Assembly: GCA_030427505.1 (NCBI GenBank)
Contig: JAUICH010000008.1
Span: 62,001-126,000, forward strand
Direction of reading: 5' to 3'
DNA from: Verrucomicrobiia bacterium
Lineage (GTDB): Bacteria > Verrucomicrobiota > Verrucomicrobiia > Verrucomicrobiales > DEV007
DNA: 64,000 bases
A program made the translations under genes and the position numbers. The notes beneath the pieces were generated by a model. It did no database searches, was not told the origin of the DNA, and was given only the letters and a program-made list of their open reading frames with translations. Position 1 is the first letter of the stretch. The number at the start of each line of letters is the position of its first letter. Of the stretch, positions 7,712 to 18,949 are shown in pieces.

Positions 7712-9328
7712 GTGCCGTCTCTGCCTTTTGAAGACAGAAAGGGCTTCGCATACTTTTTGCTGACTCGTTCATACCCAGTGTCATTGAAAATAGGGGCTCT
7801 CCTTCTCACCTCGCTGTTGTGGATCTCAGGCGTAGCCGCCTTCGGTGGCGACGAAGCGACGATTTCGCGTGTGCGGATCGACTTTTCCTACGTGGAGGAG
7901 GAGGCGCGAAAGCTGGCGGCCAAGCCGTACGACGCTGAGCAGTACCACAAGATTCCCGAATCGCTTTCGTCTCTGAATTTCGACCAGTACCGGGCCATCA
8001 AGTTCCGGCCGGAGAAGACCCTCTGGCTGCCAGACAATGGAAACTTCCGGCTTCAGTTTTTTCATCCCGGCTACATTTTCGACATTCCGGTGCAGGTGCA
8101 CGAATTTTCCGAAACGCACCGCCAGCACATCCGGTTCGTGGAGAGTTTCTTCGACTACACGGATCTGGCAATCGAAGGAAACATCCCGGTTTCCGTGGGC
8201 TACGCGGGGCTGAAAGTGCTCTATCCCCTGGACCCCAATCTGAAGCGCTGGGATGAAACATTGACCTTCCTGGGTTCCAACTACTTCCGGGCTTTGGGGC
8301 GGAATCAGCGCTACGGCATTTCCGCCCGGGGTCTGGCCTTGGACGCCGGTATGGAAGGAGTGGCCGAGGAATTTCCCGATTTCGTGGAGTTCTGGTTAGG
8401 AAAACCCAAGCCGGAGAGCACCGGGCTGACGATTTATGCGCTGATGGACAGCCCCAGCGTGGCGGGTGCTTATGAGTTCGTTCTGAAGCCCGGGGAAACC
8501 ACGCGGATCGACGTAACGGTCACTCTTTTCTATCGCGACGTGAGCCGGGACATCGGCCTGGCGCCGCTGACCTCTATGTACTGGTATGGAGAAAACCACG
8601 AGCATCGCTTTGGCGATTACCGCCCGGAAGTGCATGATTCCGACGGCTTGCTGCTGGAACTCTCCGATGGGCGCTATGTGTGGCGGCCTTTGCTAAACAC
8701 GCAACAGCTCCGCTCCGTGGCTTTTGGCGCGGAGAACCCGAAAGGCTTCGGCCTGTTGCAGCGGGACCGGGAGTTCGAACACTACGAGGATCTGCACAAT
8801 CCCTACCACCGCACGCCGAGTCTCTTTATCCGGCCCAAGGGGGAGTGGGGCGCGGGAGCGGTGCGTCTGATAGAGCTGCCGACGAACAACGAGGGCATGG
8901 ACAACGTGGTGGCCTACTGGAAGCCCAATGAGAAACCCGTGCCTGGCGAGCCTTATCGTTATGCCTACGAGATGCTCTGGACCATGGAAACGGACATGGA
9001 GCTGTCGCGGAACAAGGTAGTGGGGACACGGGTGGGGCACATCCCGCAGTTTCCGGACACGCGGCGTTTCGTGGTGGACTTTGCCGGACCACTGCTGGAA
9101 GCCATGGGCGATTCAGCCGATCCCCCCATCACGGCCGTAATCAATTCTGGCCCGAATGGGTTCGTGACGGAAAACGAATGCGTGAGGAACCCGCACACCA
9201 AGGGCTGGCGGGTGCTCTTTAAGCTGGACACCGATGACGACAACGTTTTGCCCGTGGAACTCACCTGTCACCTGCAACAGGGAGACCAGATCCTGACCGA
9301 GACCTGGAGTTACCTATGGAGTCCGTGA
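7712..9328 (+). CDS. opgG: Periplasmic glucans biosynthesis protein MdoG/OpgG
   Basis: The protein has 538 residues, the usual size for the OpgG/OpgD family. Family blocks are recognisable along the whole length: EARKLAAKPY near the N-terminus, the RAIKFRPEKTLW block, RALGRNQRYGISARGLALD in the middle and TSMYWYGENH. The family has two beta-sandwich domains and acts in the periplasm on the branching or length of osmoregulated periplasmic glucans. GTG at 7712 is the longest start. An in-frame GTG at 7778 would place the hydrophobic signal segment (LKIGALLLTSLLWISGVAAFG) right at the N-terminus and is a good alternative. It overlaps the next gene by 13 bp. Confidence 0.93.
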   Translation: MPSLPFEDRKGFAYFLLTRSYPVSLKIGALLLTSLLWISGVAAFGGDEATISRVRIDFSYVEEEARKLAAKPYDAEQYHKIPESLSSLNFDQYRAIKFRPEKTLWLPDNGNFRLQFFHPGYIFDIPVQVHEFSETHRQHIRFVESFFDYTDLAIEGNIPVSVGYAGLKVLYPLDPNLKRWDETLTFLGSNYFRALGRNQRYGISARGLALDAGMEGVAEEFPDFVEFWLGKPKPESTGLTIYALMDSPSVAGAYEFVLKPGETTRIDVTVTLFYRDVSRDIGLAPLTSMYWYGENHEHRFGDYRPEVHDSDGLLLELSDGRYVWRPLLNTQQLRSVAFGAENPKGFGLLQRDREFEHYEDLHNPYHRTPSLFIRPKGEWGAGAVRLIELPTNNEGMDNVVAYWKPNEKPVPGEPYRYAYEMLWTMETDMELSRNKVVGTRVGHIPQFPDTRRFVVDFAGPLLEAMGDSADPPITAVINSGPNGFVTENECVRNPHTKGWRVLFKLDTDDDNVLPVELTCHLQQGDQILTETWSYLWSP

Positions 9329-9897
9329 AAATGCCGCTTCCGGAGGACTTCGCCCTTCTGGAAGACTGGAACGATGCCTACCGGCAAGTGGAGAGCTACT
9401 TTGGCGCTCTGAGAATCCGGAACAAGCTGGTGTTGAGCCGGCTGGTTTACCAGGTGTTGACGCGCGTTGCAAAGAGGCTGGAAGACGAGCCCAAGCCCGG
9501 CGACCTGACGCCCCTGGTGGCGGAGGAAACCGACCGTCTGGTGGAGGAGTGGTTTATCCAGATCCTGGGCCGGGACGTGTCCGAAGGCACGGGCCGCGTT
9601 TCCGAACAGGGACGCCTGGCGTTGTTGCTGTCCGGCGTGACGGAGCGCTGGCAGGCCCGGCTGCTGAGCGAACCTCCCTGGCCGGAGGAAATGGTGGCCA
9701 GCATGCGCGCCGCCTATTTGCGGGCGGGTCCGGACTTCCAGATTTCGCAGATGACCCCACGGCCCATCGACCTGGGGCCGGTGTCCGCCGCGGCCCGCAC
9801 GCTTCAGACCCTGGAGGGGCGGCCTTTTCTGAAAATGTTCGTGGTCTGGAGCCTGGCGCTGCTGGGGGTGGCCTTTCTCTTTTTTCTAACCCGTTGA
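9316..9897 (+). CDS. Uncharacterised protein with C-terminal membrane anchor, within opg locus
   Basis: The protein has 193 residues. It is mostly helical and charged, with one predicted membrane segment at the extreme C-terminus (about 173-191: FVVWSLALLGVAFLFFL), giving a tail-anchored topology with most of the protein in the cytoplasm. I recognise no domain. It overlaps the end of opgG by 13 bp and precedes opgH, so it is probably co-translated with opgG and works in glucan synthesis, perhaps as an accessory or localisation factor for OpgH. That role is inferred from position only. Confidence 0.75.
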   Translation: MESVKMPLPEDFALLEDWNDAYRQVESYFGALRIRNKLVLSRLVYQVLTRVAKRLEDEPKPGDLTPLVAEETDRLVEEWFIQILGRDVSEGTGRVSEQGRLALLLSGVTERWQARLLSEPPWPEEMVASMRAAYLRAGPDFQISQMTPRPIDLGPVSAAARTLQTLEGRPFLKMFVVWSLALLGVAFLFFLTR

Positions 9898-9899
9898 AC

Positions 9900-10194
9900 T
9901 AGGCAGTACGGACAAATTGGAGAACGGACCGGAAATGAATAAAAGAAAAGAGAACTCAGCGCCGCGAAGCGGCGAATACCTGAAGACGCGGCCCATTTTT
10001 ATCCCGCCTTTGCGGGCTCTGCCGGCACCTTCCGCTTCGCTTCAGGGGTTTGCGAGCCGCTTCGCGGCCGAAGCAGTCTGCCTGGCTTCGTTCCCACTCT
10101 CTCTATTGGGGGGCGGCCCAATGCCGTTCGCGGCGCCTGGCCAGACAGTAAATGCTCTCGCGCCGGTCCGCCCCCAATTTGTCCACACTGCCTA
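9900..10194. mobile_element. MITE-like element with ~30-bp terminal inverted repeats and TA duplication
   Basis: The ends match as inverted repeats: GGCAGTACGGACAAATTGG at 9902-9920 against the complement of 10174-10192, with two mismatches. A further 8/8 match follows inside (CGGACCGG at 9925-9932 against 10163-10170). Both ends are flanked by TA (9900-9901 and 10193-10194), as expected for IS630/Tc1-mariner-type transposition. Inside is a second inverted repeat: GCCGCGAAGCGGC at 9961-9973 against 10056-10068, and CCTGAAG at 9979-9985 against 10040-10046. The 291-bp body has no credible gene. It separates the 193-residue gene from opgH; removing it with one TA would leave the opgH ATG only a few bases after the upstream stop. 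Confidence 0.7.
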
Positions 10195-12429
10195 ATGTCC
10201 ACGGTTTACACCACCATCCCTTATCCGCCACAGGCGCGGGAAGTGAAGATGACTCAGGGCCGGGCAAGAACCGCCGAGCCTGAAAGGCCCCCGGCGCCGA
10301 GCCGCATGGATCGCCGCTACTGGCGAGTGTTCGTCTTTTTCAGTGCTGTCATCCTGCTGAGTTTGTTGGGCATCTTCCTGATGGCGGACTTTCTTTGGCG
10401 CACGGGCTGGACGACGCCCAAGCTGACGCTGCTGGCGGTGTTTTCCGTTTTGTTCGGCTACATCGCTTTTGGTTGCTGCCACGCGCTGTTTGGGTTCCTC
10501 CAGATGCGGCGGAAAGGGGGCGATCCTTGCAAGATCACAAAGACACCGGGTTGGAGGGCGAAGTCCATCAAGGAGGCTCCCACCGCTATTGTTGTCCCTA
10601 TTTACAACGAGTCCGTGGAGCGTGTCTTCGCGGGACTGTCTTCGGTGTATGAATCGTTGCTGAACACGGGCGAGATCGACTCGTTCGACTTTTTCGTGCT
10701 GAGCGATTCGACCGACACCTCCACATGGATCGCGGAAGAGCGGGCCTGGTTGAAACTGGTGCAGCGGCACAAGGCGATCGGGAGGATCTTCTATCGCCGC
10801 CGCCTGAAGAACATCGGAAAGAAGAGCGGCAACATCTCCGACTTCTGCCGCGCCTGGGGACAGCGCTACCGCTACATGATCGTGCTGGACGCGGACAGCG
10901 TGATGACGGGCGAGACCCTGACCAACATGGTTAAGATGATGGAAGCCTCGCCCCGCGCCGGACTGATCCAGACCGTGCCCGCCAGCATCAACGCGGAGAC
11001 GGTGTTCGGACGGTTGCAGCAGTTCGCCGGACGCCTGTACGGGCCGATTTTCATGGGCGGCCTGAACTACTGGCAGCGGGAGAACGGGAACTACTGGGGC
11101 CACAACGCCATCATTCGCATGGCGCCTTTCATGGAACACTGCGATTTGCCGAGCCTGCCGGGCCAGAAGCCGTTTGGGGGCCAGATCTTGAGCCATGACT
11201 TTGTGGAGGCGGCGCTGCTGCGCAAAGCAGGCTGGGAGGTCTACCTCGCCCATGACCTGGAGGGCAGCTACGAAGAAGGGCCGCCGAACCTGATTGAAAG
11301 CGCCAAGCGGGACCGCCGTTGGTGCCAGGGAAACTTGCAGCACAGCATGCTGCTCTACGCCCGCGGCTTTCGGGGCCTGAGCCGGATTCACTTGGCCAAT
11401 GGCATTCTGGGTTATCTTTCCTCGCCGCTGTGGCTGGCCTTTCTGATCTTGTCCACTTACATTGTCTATGCCCACCAGGAGAGCGGGTTGAGCCGAATTG
11501 CCGTGGCCTCATATAGCGACTTGTGGGACGTGGATATTGTCACTCATGGGTTGATCATCTTTCTGTTCACCATGGCGCTGCTCTTCACGCCGAAGATATG
11601 TGCCTTGATCGACCTGGCATTGAAGCCGGAACGCCAGCCGTTATTTGGTGGCTGGTGGAAAGGGGCCGCGAGTGCCTTGTTTGAAACCGTGATCTCCACG
11701 CTGATCGCGCCGGTGATGATGCTCTTTCACACCCAGTTTGTCTTCAGCGTGCTGGCGGGCCGTTCCACGCAGTGGGCGCCACAAAAGAGGGATGCGGACT
11801 TGGGCACAAGCTGGGCGGAGGCTATCCAGACGCATTGGGTACACACCCTACTGGGCGTGGCTTGGGGCGTGTTGGCCTGGAACCTGGATCCGCTGTTTTT
11901 CTGGTGGCTGTCGCCCGTGATCCTGGGCATGGCGCTATCCGTGCCGGTATCCGTTGTGACCAGCCGGCCCCTTCTGGGCCGCCGCCTCCGGAAGTGGGGC
12001 TTGCTGTTGTCTCCCGAAGAAACCAGCCCGCCGCCGGTGATCAGTTCGCTGCTGACCAAGACCTCGCGCAGCACGGGTAAAGCCAGCACGGAAAGCATTC
12101 CCGAGCCCCTGCGCGGTCTGCGGGACGTGGTGCTGGACCCCTACGCGAATGCCGTGCATGTGAGTCTATTGAGGGAACTCAAGTACCTTCCCCATGGCGA
12201 ACTGGGTACTGAGGAAGAAGTGAAAGGCGTGTCCTTCGAGGATCTGAAGATCGACGCCGAAGCGCTCTTGATTCATGGCCCCAGCCGGATGCACGAGGAA
12301 AGGCTCGAGCGTCTCCTGTGCAGCGCGGATGTCTTGCTCTGGCTGCACAAGGAAGTATGGCGCCGACCCGCCGGGAAACTTTCCGTCTGGTGGCAAACCC
12401 GCATCCGCCGGTATCGCGACCGGTCCTGA
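10195..12429 (+). CDS. opgH: Glucans biosynthesis glucosyltransferase MdoH/OpgH
   Basis: The protein has 744 residues. It is an inner-membrane GT2-family enzyme that makes and exports beta-glucan backbones from UDP-glucose. It has two N-terminal membrane segments (about 43-65 and 76-104), a catalytic domain with IVVPIYNES, VLSDSTD, VLDADSVMTG (DxD at 232-234), LSHDFVEAALLRKAGWEV and RDRRWCQGN (the QxxRW equivalent), then a cluster of C-terminal membrane helices. It lacks most of the long N-terminal cytoplasmic region of the E. coli protein. ATG 10195 starts one base after the MITE. An in-frame ATG at 10249 preceded by GGGAAG is an alternative start with a better ribosome site. It pairs with opgG upstream. 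Confidence 0.94.
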   Translation: MSTVYTTIPYPPQAREVKMTQGRARTAEPERPPAPSRMDRRYWRVFVFFSAVILLSLLGIFLMADFLWRTGWTTPKLTLLAVFSVLFGYIAFGCCHALFGFLQMRRKGGDPCKITKTPGWRAKSIKEAPTAIVVPIYNESVERVFAGLSSVYESLLNTGEIDSFDFFVLSDSTDTSTWIAEERAWLKLVQRHKAIGRIFYRRRLKNIGKKSGNISDFCRAWGQRYRYMIVLDADSVMTGETLTNMVKMMEASPRAGLIQTVPASINAETVFGRLQQFAGRLYGPIFMGGLNYWQRENGNYWGHNAIIRMAPFMEHCDLPSLPGQKPFGGQILSHDFVEAALLRKAGWEVYLAHDLEGSYEEGPPNLIESAKRDRRWCQGNLQHSMLLYARGFRGLSRIHLANGILGYLSSPLWLAFLILSTYIVYAHQESGLSRIAVASYSDLWDVDIVTHGLIIFLFTMALLFTPKICALIDLALKPERQPLFGGWWKGAASALFETVISTLIAPVMMLFHTQFVFSVLAGRSTQWAPQKRDADLGTSWAEAIQTHWVHTLLGVAWGVLAWNLDPLFFWWLSPVILGMALSVPVSVVTSRPLLGRRLRKWGLLLSPEETSPPPVISSLLTKTSRSTGKASTESIPEPLRGLRDVVLDPYANAVHVSLLRELKYLPHGELGTEEEVKGVSFEDLKIDAEALLIHGPSRMHEERLERLLCSADVLLWLHKEVWRRPAGKLSVWWQTRIRRYRDRS

Positions 12430-12480: not shown

Positions 12481-14298
12481 CTATTCCGTGGTTTCTTCCG
12501 AAACGATCATCTGAACGGCCGTCAGGAAGCGCTGCACCAACTGCGTTCGATGGGTGAAGAGTTCTCCGATGGCGGGAAGATCGCCTAACAGGGGAACTTT
12601 CTCTTCTACATCCTGTTTATCCTCGCGAATGCCAATAAAGAGATACCCGCCGTTGGGAAACTTGCCTGAAAACGTTTGGCTCGTTTCCCGGAACACCGGT
12701 TCGTCCAGGCCGGGATGGTTCTCGGACTTTCGGAAGTTCAGAAACTCGCGGATCAAAGGCTTCAGGTTCGCGTTCAGAACCGAGGGATCGCCCGTGGGCT
12801 TCACCGCCAGTTCGATGATGACGCCGACATCGGTGGTGGTGAACTCACCGGGTATAGCCTCTCCAGTTTCGAGATCCTGGGTCATGGAGACGGGGTAGAT
12901 AAACTCCCGGGTCACCGCCACGCGGGCTTTTTCCCCCTGCGGCAGGACCACCGTGGGAGCGGACATTAGATCGAGTCCAGACTGATTAGTATGAAACAAC
13001 CGCCAGCCTTCCTCCGGTGGCAGGACCTTGGGATCGCCTGCCACAAAGCCGGTCAGGACGGGATCGTCCAGCAAGTCCGGGAGCGGGAACTCCAGGATGT
13101 TAAGCCGGACATGGAGTTCTTTCGCGTTTCGGGGCACGGAGGGGATCTTGGGCGCCGGGCCCGCCGGAGCGAGCGCGGGCGCCGGGGTGGCGTCTCCTCC
13201 GGTGGGAAGGGTGCGGCAACTGACTAACAAGGTGCCCGGTAGGATGAGGGCGAAGGCGAAGACCGAGAAAAGAATCACGCGAATCGTGCCCGCGGGTTTC
13301 CGGGCTGCTCCGATATCCAGCAAGCGCCGGAAGCGCTTCACCCGTCCGGTGTGGCTGGCGGCGGGAAGGGCCCAGCCGCACGCGTGGGCCGGAGTGGTGG
13401 TAGGTTTTCTCGGGAGCAAGGACAGCAAATGGTCCGCGTAGGGGACGGCGGCGAGACCGGAAGTCAGCACGGCGTCGTCACAAGCCTGCTCCCGCCATTC
13501 GGCGATACGCCGGCGCAATACCCAGGAAAGCGGATTCCACCAGGTCAGGAGAAAACAAAGGGAGCTTAGCAGCGTGGACCAGAGATCCCGCCGCCGGATG
13601 TGAGCCAGCTCATGCCTGACAATCGCCCAGGTCTTTTGACGCGGCCAGGCCCTGGCCTCCCGCGGAAGCACCAATGCCGGGCGAAAGAGGCCGAAGGTCA
13701 TGGGCATGGCGTCTGGCGTGAGCCAGAGTAGGGGAGCGCGTTTCAAGTGCTGTCGCCGCGACTCGGCGGTCACCAGTTTGGACAACGGGTCCTCCGGGCC
13801 CGCCAACCGGGCCTGGGGCAGTGCTTTGGTGGGACATTTCAGACAACGCCTGAAGAGGAGCAGGATTCCGGTGGCCAGCCCAAGACACCACATCGCGGTG
13901 AGGCCGCGTGAAATCGAATCCCAGAAAGAAAGGGATGCTGAGTCTCGGGGATCTTGGGACGCCGGCCCCTTCGGTGAAGTGGTTGTAAAGTTTACCTCCT
14001 GGGTCAGAGTGCCGCCGGGAGATAGCAGAGAGGTTCTGGTGACGGCCCGAAGATCCCTCTCAAAAGGACGCCATCCGTATTCATCCGGCATCCAGGAAAG
14101 ATTGAGGAGAAAGATGACCGGGAGGCCGATAGCGGCGATGACCGCGAGGGCGTGCCGGGTGCTGGCGGAAGCGCGGCGGGAAAGCCGCAGCACCACGGCG
14201 GCGAGAGCCAGCCAGGCAGCCGTTTTGATGGAAGCGCCCAGAAGCCAGGGCCAGGCGGCATCCAGGTAATCGAAGCATGTGGAGACGAACGCGTTCAT
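12481..14298 (-). CDS. BlaR1/MecR1-like M56 zinc metalloprotease fused to a secretin-like domain
   Basis: The protein has 605 residues. N-terminal membrane helices lie at about 18-38, 50-67 and 130-150. The M56 protease domain has the zinc site H229-E-L-A-H233 and the downstream EWREQACDDAVL segment, followed by another membrane helix at about 340-358 and a Pro/Ala linker. Instead of a beta-lactam sensor domain, residues about 392-603 resemble the secretin core (type II/III secretion outer-membrane protein family): SAPTVVLPQGEKARVAV, FTTTDVGVIIELAVKP, NGGYLFIGI and KVPLLGDLPAIGELF. BlaR1 proteins cleave or trigger loss of the BlaI repressor after sensing a periplasmic signal. It overlaps blaI by 4 bp. 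The fusion is the odd feature; the signal is unknown. Confidence 0.85.
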   Translation of the reverse strand: MNAFVSTCFDYLDAAWPWLLGASIKTAAWLALAAVVLRLSRRASASTRHALAVIAAIGLPVIFLLNLSWMPDEYGWRPFERDLRAVTRTSLLSPGGTLTQEVNFTTTSPKGPASQDPRDSASLSFWDSISRGLTAMWCLGLATGILLLFRRCLKCPTKALPQARLAGPEDPLSKLVTAESRRQHLKRAPLLWLTPDAMPMTFGLFRPALVLPREARAWPRQKTWAIVRHELAHIRRRDLWSTLLSSLCFLLTWWNPLSWVLRRRIAEWREQACDDAVLTSGLAAVPYADHLLSLLPRKPTTTPAHACGWALPAASHTGRVKRFRRLLDIGAARKPAGTIRVILFSVFAFALILPGTLLVSCRTLPTGGDATPAPALAPAGPAPKIPSVPRNAKELHVRLNILEFPLPDLLDDPVLTGFVAGDPKVLPPEEGWRLFHTNQSGLDLMSAPTVVLPQGEKARVAVTREFIYPVSMTQDLETGEAIPGEFTTTDVGVIIELAVKPTGDPSVLNANLKPLIREFLNFRKSENHPGLDEPVFRETSQTFSGKFPNGGYLFIGIREDKQDVEEKVPLLGDLPAIGELFTHRTQLVQRFLTAVQMIVSEETTE

Positions 14299-14765
14299 GA
14301 ACGGGGTTTGCGCTTGGGATGGGTTTTGGTGGCGCCCTTGGCCTTTGGCTTCCGGGAGGGTTTGGGTTTGGAAGAGTCTTCCTGCGATCTTTGGCGAGCT
14401 TTGGCGAGCAGGCCCTCGATGGTCTCGATCTCTTCGGCGCTGATGTTGACCGAGGGATCGTTCAGATAGGCGGCGAGGCCGTCACGCATGGAGCCGCCGA
14501 AGAAGGTGGAGAGCACCTTCCGCCAGGCCGCCTGGCCTTCGCGCTCTGGCGCCCGGGCGGGTTTGAAGACGTGTTCCCGGCCACGGGTGCCGCACTGAAC
14601 CAGATGGCCCTTTTGTTCCAGCATCTTGATGATGGACCGCAGCGCGGGGCGCGTGGGGGGCGCGTCCATGTGTTGAGCGAGATCGCCCATCGTGGCCTGA
14701 CCTAGAGAAAACAGGATCTCCATGACTTCCCGCTCCCGGCGGCTGAGCTGTTCGAAAATAGACAT
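14295..14765 (-). CDS. blaI: BlaI/MecI/CopY-family transcriptional repressor
   Basis: The protein has 156 residues. A winged helix fills about residues 1-75 (LSRREREVMEILFSLGQATM, then RSIIKMLEQKGHLVQ), with a helical dimerisation part (about 80-125) that is the usual site of M56 cleavage. The family norm is about 125 residues; here a Lys/Pro/Arg-rich tail of about 30 residues (KPKPSRKPKAKGATK and on) is added. It is followed by the M56-secretin gene with a 4-bp overlap. Two operator-like repeats lie upstream at 14813-14873, and a run of 11 C on the coding strand sits 12 bases before the ATG. It probably represses its own operon and perhaps the divergent dehydrogenase gene. Confidence 0.9.
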   Translation of the reverse strand: MSIFEQLSRREREVMEILFSLGQATMGDLAQHMDAPPTRPALRSIIKMLEQKGHLVQCGTRGREHVFKPARAPEREGQAAWRKVLSTFFGGSMRDGLAAYLNDPSVNISAEEIETIEGLLAKARQRSQEDSSKPKPSRKPKAKGATKTHPKRKPRS

Positions 14766-14787: not shown

Positions 14788-14812
14788 CGAATGGTGACGG
14801 AAGGATTTGAGG

Positions 14813-14873
14813 ACTGATTTTTCAGTATTTTGTGCAGAGAGCAAGCTTAAATACTGGTTTTTCAGTATTTTGT
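14813..14873. promoter_or_regulatory. Two operator-like 21-bp direct repeats, probable BlaI binding sites
   Basis: The sequence ACTGrTTTTTCAGTATTTTG plus one further T occurs at 14813-14833 and 14853-14873, with one mismatch and start-to-start spacing of exactly 40 bp. Each copy contains an inverted repeat: ACTGA/TCAGT at the first, and AATACTG (14850-14856) against CAGTATT (14863-14869) at the second. They lie between the divergent blaI (start 14765) and dehydrogenase (start 15020) genes. BlaI-family repressors bind dyad sites with such arms near their own promoter. Assignment to this BlaI rests on position and symmetry. Confidence 0.6.
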
Positions 14874-15019: not shown

Positions 15020-18000
15020 ATGAAGACGCCCCCCTTTTGCCTGGTCGCCAGCCTCGCGCTGGCCTTTCTAACGAGTTCCCTTCAGGCCGCGGATTGGCCC
15101 GTGTTGCTGGAAGAGAACTTCACCAGAGGCTCCAGCCAGTGGGAAGCCACGGATGAGAATGCCTGGCAGGTAAAGGAAGTGGAAGGCGGCAACCGCGTCT
15201 ATGAATTGTTCGGCAAGAGCGACTACGAGCCACCGCACCGCAGCCCCTTTAACTACTCCCTCCTCAAGTATGTGACGGTGGGGGACTTCGAACTGACGGC
15301 AAAGGTGCAGACCACCAAGGAAAGTTACGGCCACCGCGACCTGTGCCTGTTTTTCGGGTACCAAGACCCGGCGCATTTCTATTACGTGCACCTGGGCCAG
15401 AAGATGGACGATCACGCCAACCAGATCTTCATTGTCAACGACGCGCCGCGCACGAAGATCTCCGAAAAGACCACGGAAGGCACGGCATGGCAGGACGCCA
15501 CTTGGCACAACGTCAAGATCCGGCGGGAGGTGGAGAGCGGATTGATCGAGATCTATTTCGACGACATGGAGACGCCGGTCATGGTGGCGCATGATAAGAC
15601 CTTTGTGTGGGGCCGGATCGGACTGGGGTCCTTCGATGACATCGGCATGTTCGATGACGTGGTGCTGAAAGGCGTGGAAGTGAAAGGGGAGAAGGCGGGA
15701 ATGCCAGACCCGAAGAGCTTGAAGTTCGTGAAGTGGACCGAAGGCTTTGAAGTGCCGGATCCAGTGTCCGTGAGCCTGGATGAAAAGGGCAATGCCTATG
15801 TCACCCAGACCCAGCGGCGTAAGCTACAGGATCTGGACATTCGCGAACACAGAGACTGGATTCCGAACGACGTCAGCTTTCAGTGGGTGCGGGACAAGCA
15901 GGATTTCTATCAAAAGACCCTGGCGCCGGAGAACAGCGCGGCGAACCAGGCGCATGTGGAAGACCTGAATGGGGACGGTTCGCACGACTGGCGGGACCTG
16001 ACGGTGTTGAGCGAAAAGATCCACCTCGTCAAAGACACGGATGGGGATGGCAAGGCGGACCAGATCAACGTATTCGCGGAGGATTTCAAAACTGAAGTCA
16101 CCGGTATCGCCGCCGGCGTGCTCTACCATGATGGCGCGGTTTATTCGACGATTGCCCCGGACGTGTGGAAACTGCGCGACACGGATGGTGACGGTAAAGC
16201 CGACGAACGCGAAGTGGTGGCGCACGGCTTTGGGCTGCACATCGCTTATGCCGGTCACGACATGCACGGACTGACGGTGGGGCCGGATGGCCGGATCTAC
16301 TGGTCCATCGGGGACAAAGGCATCGCGGTGAAGTCGAAGGAAGGGAAAGTCTTTCACTATCCGAATCAGGGCGGCGTGCTGCGTTGCGAGCCGGATGGCA
16401 GCCATTTCGAGGTCTTTGCCCATGGCTTGCGCAATGTGCAGGAGGTGGCCTTTGACGCGCACGGGAATCTCTTTGGCGTGGACAACGACTCCGACCAGGC
16501 GGGAGAGATGGAGCGCTTCGTCTACATCGTGCAGCACTCAGACGCGGGCTGGCGTTGCAACTGGCAGTACCGGGGCAGCGACTTCAATCCCTGGATGGAT
16601 GAGGGCCTGTGGAAACCTTACTTCGAAGGTCAGCCGGCCTACATCGTGCCGCCGATCCAGAACTACGTGAACGGTCCCGCTGGCTTTGCCTTCAACCCTG
16701 GCACGGCGCTGAGCCCGGACTATAAGGACTACTTCTTTGTCGATCAGTTTTCCAGCGGCTACCAGAACGCCTTCCAGGCGAAGGAAAAGGGCGCGTCCTT
16801 TGAAATGGTAAACGACCATGTGATCGGCAACGGCATTCCGCTGATCGGGACCAACTTCGGGCCGGACGGGGCGCTCTATGCCGTGGACTGGGGCGGGGGC
16901 TATCCGCTGAATGAAAAGGGAGCCGTGTGGAAGATCGACGTGCCGGAGTACGCGGACTCCGCCATCCGGAAAGAGACCAAACGCCTGATCGAGGAAGGCG
17001 GGAGCGGCAAGGAAGAGGCCGAGCTGGTAACTATGTTGGGTCACGAAGACCAGCGCGTCCGGATGATCGCGCAGTTCGAACTGGTGAAGCGCGAGCGCAA
17101 AGACGCCCTAACAAAGGTGGCGCGAGACGAAAGCGCGGATCCACTGGCCCGGCTGCACGCCATCTGGGGGATCGGGCAACTGCTGCGTTATGACGCGGAC
17201 GCCACCTATGCCGAACTGACCCCACTGGCGAAGGCGGGCGACGCGGAGGTCCGCGCCCAGGCCGCGAAGACCATTGGCGAAGGCAGTACCAATCAACCGG
17301 TCGCGAAGTACTTGGTGCCGCTGCTGAAAGACCCGAACGCCAGGGTGCGGTTTCAGGCGGCACTGGCCTTGGGAAATCTGGAGGCTCCGGAAGCGACCGA
17401 ACCCCTTATCGAATTCATCAGCGGACTCGAACCGGATCAGGTGTATCTCCGGCACGCCGGGGTGCATGGTCTGACGGGCTGCGCTTATCCGGATACCCTG
17501 GCGGGTCTGGCGGATCATGCCTCTGAAGCCGTGCGGCTGGCGGCCTGCCTGGCGCTGCGCAACCGGGCAGACGCGGCGATTACCGCTTACTTAAACGACG
17601 CGTCCGAAATCGTGGCCACGGAAGCCGCGCGGGGCATTCACGATGACTGGACCATTCCGGACGCGATGCCCGCTCTGGCGGCGCTGGTGGAAAATCCACC
17701 CTATCAGAACGAGTCCCTGCTGCGCCGGGCCATCGGAGCAAACTTCCGGTTGGGCGGAGAGGCCGAGGTGAAACGCGTGGCCGAGTTCGCGGCGAACGGG
17801 GAGATGCCGAAAGCCATGCGGATGGAGGCGATCGACGCCCTCCTGGAGTGGCCCACGCCTCCGGTGCTGGACCGGGTGGACGGCCGCTACCGGCCGCTGG
17901 AAGCGCGGGACGTCGCGACGATCGGGAAGGCGGCAGCCAGTTCGGTGGACGCGCTTCTTCAGGACGCGGACGTGGAACTGCGGGAAGCCGGCATGGCCCT

Positions 18001-18949
18001 GGCGACGGAACTGAACATTCAGATCGAGCCGGGCACGCTGCTCACGGTGGTGGAAGATCAGGAAGCCCCCAGCGGTCTTCGTTTGCAGGCTTTGAAAACG
18101 CTTTCCAAACAAGCCGCTAAAGGAGAAGCCACTCACAAGGCAATCGATGCCGGGCTGGCCGCTAAGGACGCGAGCTTGCGCGCGGAAGCGCGTTCGCTGC
18201 TGGCCAAGACTTCCCCGGAGAAGGCGATTCCCCTGTTGAAAGAGGCGGTGAATTCGGACAAAGCCAAACTGCCGGAGCGCCAACAGGCCTTGCTGGATCT
18301 GGCTGCTACCGCTAAGCCGGAAGCGGATGAGTTGATCTTGGATTGGATGCGGAAGCTGACAGACGGCAAAGCGCCCCGGACCATGGCGCTGGACATCCTG
18401 ACGGCCGCCGAGGGCCGGGCAAAAGAGGCGCCGGATCTCCAGAAAGCCCTGGATGCGTTCGAAACCGCTCGCGCCAAAAACGGCACTGGCAGCTTGGTCG
18501 ATTCGGCGTCCGAATGCCTGGAAGGCGGCGACGCCACCAGGGGGAAGAAGGTCTTTACCACGCATCTTTCCGCGCAGTGCACGGCCTGCCACAAAGTGAA
18601 GGATGGCAAGGGCAGCAACGTGGGGCCCAATCTGAAAAGCGTCGGCGCGAAGAATCCGCGCGAATTTCTCCTGGAGTCCCTCCTCAATCCGCAGGCCAAG
18701 ATCGCCAAGGGCTATGGCACCATCATGCTCACCCTGAAGAGCGGCGACCTGGTGAGCGGACAGTTCCGGGAAGAGACGGATCAGTTCGTGGAACTGCGGG
18801 ACGCGGAAGGGGAATCCATCAAAGTTCCGCTGGAGGATATCGAAAACCGGACGCCTGTGATCTCGTCAATGCCTCCCATGCTTGGTATACTGAACAAACA
18901 CGAACTTCGCGACGTGGTGGAATACCTCTCGACGCTGAAGGCCAAGTAA
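15020..18949 (+). CDS. PVC-type membrane-bound dehydrogenase: beta-propeller, HEAT repeats and C-terminal heme domain
   Basis: From ATG 15020 the protein has 1309 residues with a Sec signal peptide (1-23, cleavage near LQA-AD). The reading frame is open further upstream, but that would cross the operator repeats and bury the signal peptide. Residues 25-225 are a DUF1080/LamG-like beta-sandwich. About 230-640 form a glucose/sorbosone dehydrogenase-like propeller with two DTDGDGKAD calcium-type loops (339 and 387). About 660-1130 are HEAT repeats, and the C-terminus holds a cytochrome c motif CTACH (1187-1191) in the PVC heme-binding domain. It is probably periplasmic and oxidises a sugar-like substrate. 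A sulfatase gene follows after 16 bp. Confidence 0.9.
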   Translation: MKTPPFCLVASLALAFLTSSLQAADWPVLLEENFTRGSSQWEATDENAWQVKEVEGGNRVYELFGKSDYEPPHRSPFNYSLLKYVTVGDFELTAKVQTTKESYGHRDLCLFFGYQDPAHFYYVHLGQKMDDHANQIFIVNDAPRTKISEKTTEGTAWQDATWHNVKIRREVESGLIEIYFDDMETPVMVAHDKTFVWGRIGLGSFDDIGMFDDVVLKGVEVKGEKAGMPDPKSLKFVKWTEGFEVPDPVSVSLDEKGNAYVTQTQRRKLQDLDIREHRDWIPNDVSFQWVRDKQDFYQKTLAPENSAANQAHVEDLNGDGSHDWRDLTVLSEKIHLVKDTDGDGKADQINVFAEDFKTEVTGIAAGVLYHDGAVYSTIAPDVWKLRDTDGDGKADEREVVAHGFGLHIAYAGHDMHGLTVGPDGRIYWSIGDKGIAVKSKEGKVFHYPNQGGVLRCEPDGSHFEVFAHGLRNVQEVAFDAHGNLFGVDNDSDQAGEMERFVYIVQHSDAGWRCNWQYRGSDFNPWMDEGLWKPYFEGQPAYIVPPIQNYVNGPAGFAFNPGTALSPDYKDYFFVDQFSSGYQNAFQAKEKGASFEMVNDHVIGNGIPLIGTNFGPDGALYAVDWGGGYPLNEKGAVWKIDVPEYADSAIRKETKRLIEEGGSGKEEAELVTMLGHEDQRVRMIAQFELVKRERKDALTKVARDESADPLARLHAIWGIGQLLRYDADATYAELTPLAKAGDAEVRAQAAKTIGEGSTNQPVAKYLVPLLKDPNARVRFQAALALGNLEAPEATEPLIEFISGLEPDQVYLRHAGVHGLTGCAYPDTLAGLADHASEAVRLAACLALRNRADAAITAYLNDASEIVATEAARGIHDDWTIPDAMPALAALVENPPYQNESLLRRAIGANFRLGGEAEVKRVAEFAANGEMPKAMRMEAIDALLEWPTPPVLDRVDGRYRPLEARDVATIGKAAASSVDALLQDADVELREAGMALATELNIQIEPGTLLTVVEDQEAPSGLRLQALKTLSKQAAKGEATHKAIDAGLAAKDASLRAEARSLLAKTSPEKAIPLLKEAVNSDKAKLPERQQALLDLAATAKPEADELILDWMRKLTDGKAPRTMALDILTAAEGRAKEAPDLQKALDAFETARAKNGTGSLVDSASECLEGGDATRGKKVFTTHLSAQCTACHKVKDGKGSNVGPNLKSVGAKNPREFLLESLLNPQAKIAKGYGTIMLTLKSGDLVSGQFREETDQFVELRDAEGESIKVPLEDIENRTPVISSMPPMLGILNKHELRDVVEYLSTLKAK

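Follow-up and report, generated by a model that had tools for sequence, protein, structure and literature searches.

Receptors of the BlaR1 type are, to our knowledge, known almost only as beta-lactam sensors. In the BlaR1/MecR1 systems, an M56 protease with an HEXXH...E zinc site is encoded in an operon with a BlaI/MecI-type repressor, inverted repeats lie upstream, and the last membrane helix of the protease leads into an extracytoplasmic C-terminal domain that serves as a penicillin-binding sensor. BlaR1 of S. aureus cleaves BlaI directly, and the signal peptidase SpsB cuts between the last helix and the sensor and sheds the latter; the authors of that work proposed that beta-lactam binding protects the SpsB site (PMC9834060). 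The window, by which we mean the whole stretch of 64,000 nucleotides analysed here, encodes a protein that resembles these receptors in its protease, its repressor partner, the upstream repeats and the order of helix and C-terminal domain, with a possible signal-peptidase site between the two. Unlike BlaR1 and MecR1, it has a secretin core in place of the penicillin-binding sensor and a lipobox instead of a type I site, and its operon contains no beta-lactamase gene. The nearest described secretins are those of the family of Amuc_1098, the PilQ secretin that is abundant in the outer membrane of Akkermansia (PMC4960237).

The gene lies at 12481–14298 on the minus strand and is one uninterrupted frame of 605 amino acids with no internal stops. 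Its Peptidase_M56 domain covers residues 20–315 (13354–14241, minus strand; PF05569, 91.3 bits, E 8e-26, cut-off 31). The HELAH zinc motif at residues 229–233 (13600–13614, minus strand) and the third zinc ligand E270 (13489–13491, minus strand) together supply H229, E230, H233 and E270, an intact HEXXH...E site of the BlaR1 pattern. The 41 residues from H to E match the spacing of H201 and E242 in S. aureus BlaR1. The NCBIfam model blaR1_generic scored the protein at 55.8 bits against a cut-off of 400. The last membrane helix, residues 337–361 (13216–13290, minus strand), was assigned by hydropathy and ends in the lipobox motif LVSC (residues 358–361, 13216–13227); a Pro/Ala-rich linker follows at residues 362–391 (13126–13215, minus strand). 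By analogy with BlaR1, both termini would lie outside the cytoplasm and the zinc site within it, and the membrane protease probably cuts its partner, the BlaI-type repressor, directly.

A Pfam search of the 605-residue protein returned the M56 domain and a secretin core at residues 441–588 (12535–12978, minus strand; PF00263, 51.7 bits, E 9.7e-14, cut-off 27.5), both above the curated cut-offs. There were no further matches, whether to a transpeptidase, to a beta-lactamase or to any other domain. The original prediction, that an M56 (BlaR1-like) protease carries a secretin-like C-terminal domain in the position of the penicillin-binding sensor, is thus borne out, with both matches in one frame. 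We rejected the tail as a beta-lactam sensor because it contains no such domain. The mini-secretin core extends over residues 392–600 (12499–13125, minus strand) and includes the secretin signature KVPLLGDLPAIGELF at residues 567–581 (12556–12600, minus strand). When the tail was searched against the PDB as a profile that also included true secretins among its relatives, GspD, PilQ, RcpA, pIV, InvG and BfpB were matched with a best E of 5e-21. Structure prediction of the tail agreed with this assignment. An AlphaFold model built from a 33-row alignment had a mean pLDDT of 69, rising to about 90 across tail residues 71–160; its top 36 Foldseek matches were all secretins (best E 1.7e-5), and secretins took ranks 1–28 in VIA-align (Z 7.9 to 5.8), with unrelated folds from 5.0 down. 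A control model of a true secretin core was poor (pLDDT 60) and was excluded from the comparison.

Less of a secretin is present than the words "secretin core signature" in the original prediction might imply: the signature, the PF00263 match and the fold stand, but the tail has no N domains and, as far as the alignment shows, no long first hairpin. TPR, STN and N1 regions are all absent from it when it is aligned with Amuc_1098-type secretins from the order. Pfam gave no STN or Secretin_N match in the protein, and the core follows the linker directly, leaving no N0/N1/N3 rings. We therefore rejected the tail as a full secretin. The Amuc_1098 type IV pilus secretin family (NF042912) is the nearest NCBIfam secretin to the core, at 58.7 bits over the core part only against a cut-off of 750; the window protein differs from it in these absent regions, in its short first hairpin and in its fusion to a protease. 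Known secretins contribute four outer-barrel strands and two gate hairpins per subunit (PMC7545093). The window tail retains the gate part and the VPLLGD signature, yet its first hairpin is shortened: the residues GFDWLLG...GLRSG, which in the Amuc_1098-type secretins come after the first strand and ahead of the helix preceding LMSAPT, are not there. From the lack of N domains and of a full first hairpin we infer that the tail probably makes no ordinary pore, although the stretch missing from the alignment is also one of low model confidence, so this conclusion is not proven. In this respect the tail also departs from lipoprotein secretins such as BfpB, which are full-length, have N domains and form outer-membrane rings, while it shares with them the secretin fold and perhaps a lipid anchor.

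Immediately upstream, and sharing an ATGA overlap with the M56 gene, lies a gene for a BlaI-type repressor of 156 amino acids (14295–14765, minus strand; PF03965, 54.4 bits, E 2e-14). Upstream of this blaI gene, a sequence search revealed two operator-like inverted repeats spaced exactly 40 bp apart: copy 1, AGGACTGATTTTTCAGTATT, at 14810–14829, and copy 2, AATACTGGTTTTTCAGTATT, at 14850–14869, the latter a perfect palindrome of the form ATACTG-N6-CAGTAT. This palindrome occurs once in the 6.4-Mb genome, and the 21-bp repeat consensus, allowing up to three mismatches, retrieved just the two known copies genome-wide (reversed control, 0). A regulon search with the palindrome returned, beyond the perfect site, only single-mismatch matches whose count did not exceed the control; without additional copies, no further target genes can be named. 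Confinement of the repeats to the region upstream of blaI fits a repressor that controls its own operon through a predicted operator. A promoter scan found nothing. The same intergenic region is shared with a divergent gene for a DUF7133/HEAT/cytochrome c protein (15020–18949, plus strand; Pfam), which is a possible second target of the repressor.

The blaI and M56 genes form an isolated pair, bounded by this divergent gene upstream and by a convergent glycosyltransferase gene (10195–12429) downstream. The latter belongs to an apparent periplasmic glucan synthesis pair at 7712–12429 on the plus strand, made up of an OpgG-like protein of 538 amino acids, recognized by eye, and the glycosyltransferase of 744 amino acids, recognized by Pfam. 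No pilus or secretion genes adjoin the blaI–M56 pair. This bears on the idea that the tail forms a ring or joins the rings of a true secretin, so that the protein, anchored in the inner membrane, would serve a pilus or secretion machine as a component or chaperone and would not be a receptor. The retained gate region and VPLLGD signature would suit such a role, as would the derivation of the modules from a pilus secretin family. Against it stand the missing N domains and long first hairpin, the lack of machine genes nearby, and two features that argue for regulation: the M56 site is intact, and a repressor gene overlaps. We regard it as improbable.

We also considered whether the fusion could be a chance event or an assembly artefact that left the tail without a role. 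The tail is divergent, with about 30% identity to secretins and a long branch on the tree, and searches of 337 genomes of the order and 388 of the phylum turned up no close orthologue of this precise fusion. A scan of genome contigs with P0001 confirmed nothing, and one with the tail alignment recovered just bona fide secretins and double-core Verrucomicrobiales proteins, with no M56 fusion. However, the frame is intact, the fold and signature are conserved, the junction, at about 13216, preserves the frame and falls within a membrane helix, the contig is 274 kb long, and independent fusions exist in other genera and families. An assembly error is for these reasons unlikely, and a chance fusion or artefact with a functionless tail appears very improbable. 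We found no paper in the open literature that joins BlaR1, secretin and Verrucomicrobi*.

The survey of other genomes did uncover M56–secretin fusions in further genera and families. We searched 106 distinct M56 proteins, sampled from relatives in the order, with a profile of 40 Amuc_1098-type secretins and found modules of this type in 36 of them at E up to 1e-3 (30 at 1e-10), always C-terminal of the M56 domain; none of 636 shuffled or reversed sequences matched. The 36 proteins come from 25 genomes, 11 genera and three families, and their tails contain STN repeats, N1-like modules or cores. Because the sample was not random, having been picked by M56 score, match to the window protein and frame length, the resulting one third is a rough figure. 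The window genome itself has nine M56 proteins; one on contig C55 (L004/L025) has secretin-like stretches (PF00263, 27.7 bits) and another on C43 (L030) has STN-type repeats (NF042912, 181 bits across three stretches). This genome also encodes an Amuc_1098-type secretin of its own (C50, 169354–169968). Among the M56 fusions, only the window protein matched the C-terminal VPLLGD region of the secretin profile. A blaI gene also adjoins the core-tailed M56 genes L066, L068 and L065. Mapped onto an M56-domain tree, the core tails require six changes, at least three of them forced by starred branches, and the window protein is placed among M56 proteins bearing other tails. As judged from these sequences, secretin cores joined M56 proteins several times independently, and the window protein, given its place among proteins with other tails, is an independent fusion.

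To find stand-alone relatives, the last helix and tail of the window protein were used together as the query. The nearest relatives of the tail, on sequence grounds, include stand-alone Verrucomicrobiales lipoproteins with a mini-secretin core. L160 (261 amino acids) has a signal peptide ending in ...LFLVSC, a linker and a core with VPFLGSIPLLERAF (PF00263, 79.6 bits), and L166 (257 amino acids) has ...LAAIGC (PF00263, 55.6 bits). Both resemble the window tail in their lipobox, Pro-rich linker and trimmed core with no N domains, but have no protease and begin with their own signal peptide; as proteins they match no named family in the libraries used. The decayed copy L140, in genome G027, aligns with residues 341–599 of the window protein (32% identity, 115 bits) through its ...LLIVSC; no M56 domain precedes it within about 300 bp up to the next gene, and its state of decay makes the original form uncertain. 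The last helix of the window protein terminates in LLVSC, much like the L160 signal peptide, and its lipobox aligns with that of the lipoprotein-like L140. In tail trees, the window tail groups with another M56 tail in one sequence set and with this decayed lipoprotein-like gene in the other. Most simply, this can be read as the fusion of a lipoprotein gene to an M56 gene, with the signal peptide of the former becoming or replacing the last helix. Secretin-like cores free of protease also occur in other arrangements: L167 (1426–3213), L183, L170 and L213 are secreted proteins with two tandem secretin cores and no N domains that form their own clade on the tree, and L021 of the same genome (C50, about 179626–180063) is a stand-alone 338-residue frame that combines a signal peptide with a weak secretin-like core.

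A lipobox at the end of the last helix is found in five of 105 M56 proteins, namely 3 of 15 with core tails versus 2 of 90 others (P 0.02, a weak statistic as the sequences are related). Besides the window protein, lipobox-like ends are seen in the core-tailed L139 (LTAC) and L043 (FTAC) and in L002 and L049, and are absent from several core-tailed proteins, among them L066 and L080. A type I signal-peptidase-like site stands at this point in 68 of 105 M56 proteins versus 128 of 304 other helices, a comparison whose P value is optimistic because of sequence relatedness. By analogy with BlaR1, the window tail may be released or lipidated. The rarity of the lipobox, its absence from L066 and L080, and its internal position behind several other membrane helices could instead indicate that LVSC is incidental and that the tail is a classical fixed sensor, never cut, which stays tethered to M56 and signals by conformation. 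Homologous lipoproteins have their lipobox at the matching position, though, and BlaR1 itself is cut at the corresponding point (PMC9834060), so that we consider the fixed sensor possible but somewhat doubtful.

In our view the best explanation, and a somewhat probable one, is a two-gene switch of the BlaI/BlaR1 type with an exchanged sensor, including probable processing of the tail. The BlaI-like repressor would bind both repeats in the intergenic region that blaI shares with the divergent gene (15020), thereby shutting its own operon and perhaps the divergent gene too. The M56 protein would be anchored in the inner membrane, its zinc site facing the cytoplasm and its mini-secretin domain projecting into the periplasm. 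There the mini-secretin would encounter some envelope change, whether in a true secretin, a pilus part or another outer-membrane component, and the tail would be altered by it; the altered tail would activate the M56 site, BlaI would be cleaved and the operon derepressed. As happens to S. aureus BlaR1, the protein could probably be cut by a signal peptidase where the last helix gives way to the tail. With a lipobox at the cut site, lipoprotein signal peptidase would be the likelier enzyme, and the freed tail would become a lipid-anchored mini-secretin. The signal is above all the conjectural part of this switch: outer-membrane or pilus status is a plausible guess, and the first candidate to consider is a partner with a matching fold, namely the pilus secretin, since the modules come from the Amuc_1098 pilus secretin family, although no neighbouring gene speaks for it directly. 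Sensing of outer-membrane or secretion status had been suggested in the original prediction, which is therefore supported in part: it was right about the architecture and its secretin origin. The paired BlaI gene, the operator repeats, the lipobox, the lipoprotein relatives and the wider occurrence of secretin modules in M56 proteins go beyond it.

A bolder version, which we put forward tentatively and think rather unlikely, holds that in this polytopic receptor the last helix also serves as a lipoprotein signal peptide within the chain. A lipid-anchored mini-secretin, which may reach the outer membrane, would be freed by lipoprotein signal peptidase, and M56 activity would be set either by this step or by what becomes of the tail afterwards; more widely, a class of Verrucomicrobiales receptors built from pilus-secretin parts would watch over secretin or envelope assembly. 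The interest of the case lies in the secretin modules throughout the M56 receptors of an order, together with the lipobox. That pieces of a single secretin family, variously combined and of several origins, occur in about one third of the sampled receptors points to a hitherto undescribed mode of cell-envelope sensing and suggests a sensing principle for the outer membrane or the pilus machine. The module-bearing set also offers concrete proteins for asking whether signal peptidases gate such receptors.

The M56 tails of the sample vary further. At least two STN-type (secretin N0) repeats occur in L119, L132, L030, L121, L050 and L063, with a strong Amuc_1098-family match for L119, L132, L030 and L063. 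L139 (1–2124) follows M56 and a secretin core with an SLBB domain, as in polysaccharide export proteins. Many M56 proteins, L008, L075, L079 and L102 among them, end in charged repeats of low complexity (for example REGARDGDRPREG), and EF-hand-like motifs are present in some of these. Lastly, the tails of L134 (937–3516), L124 (937–3111), L123 (1117–3531) and L137 (1025–3526) terminate in Amidase_3, a peptidoglycan amidase, preceded in L134 and L124 by secretin-like modules, so that in these four a repressor protease is fused to a cell-wall enzyme.
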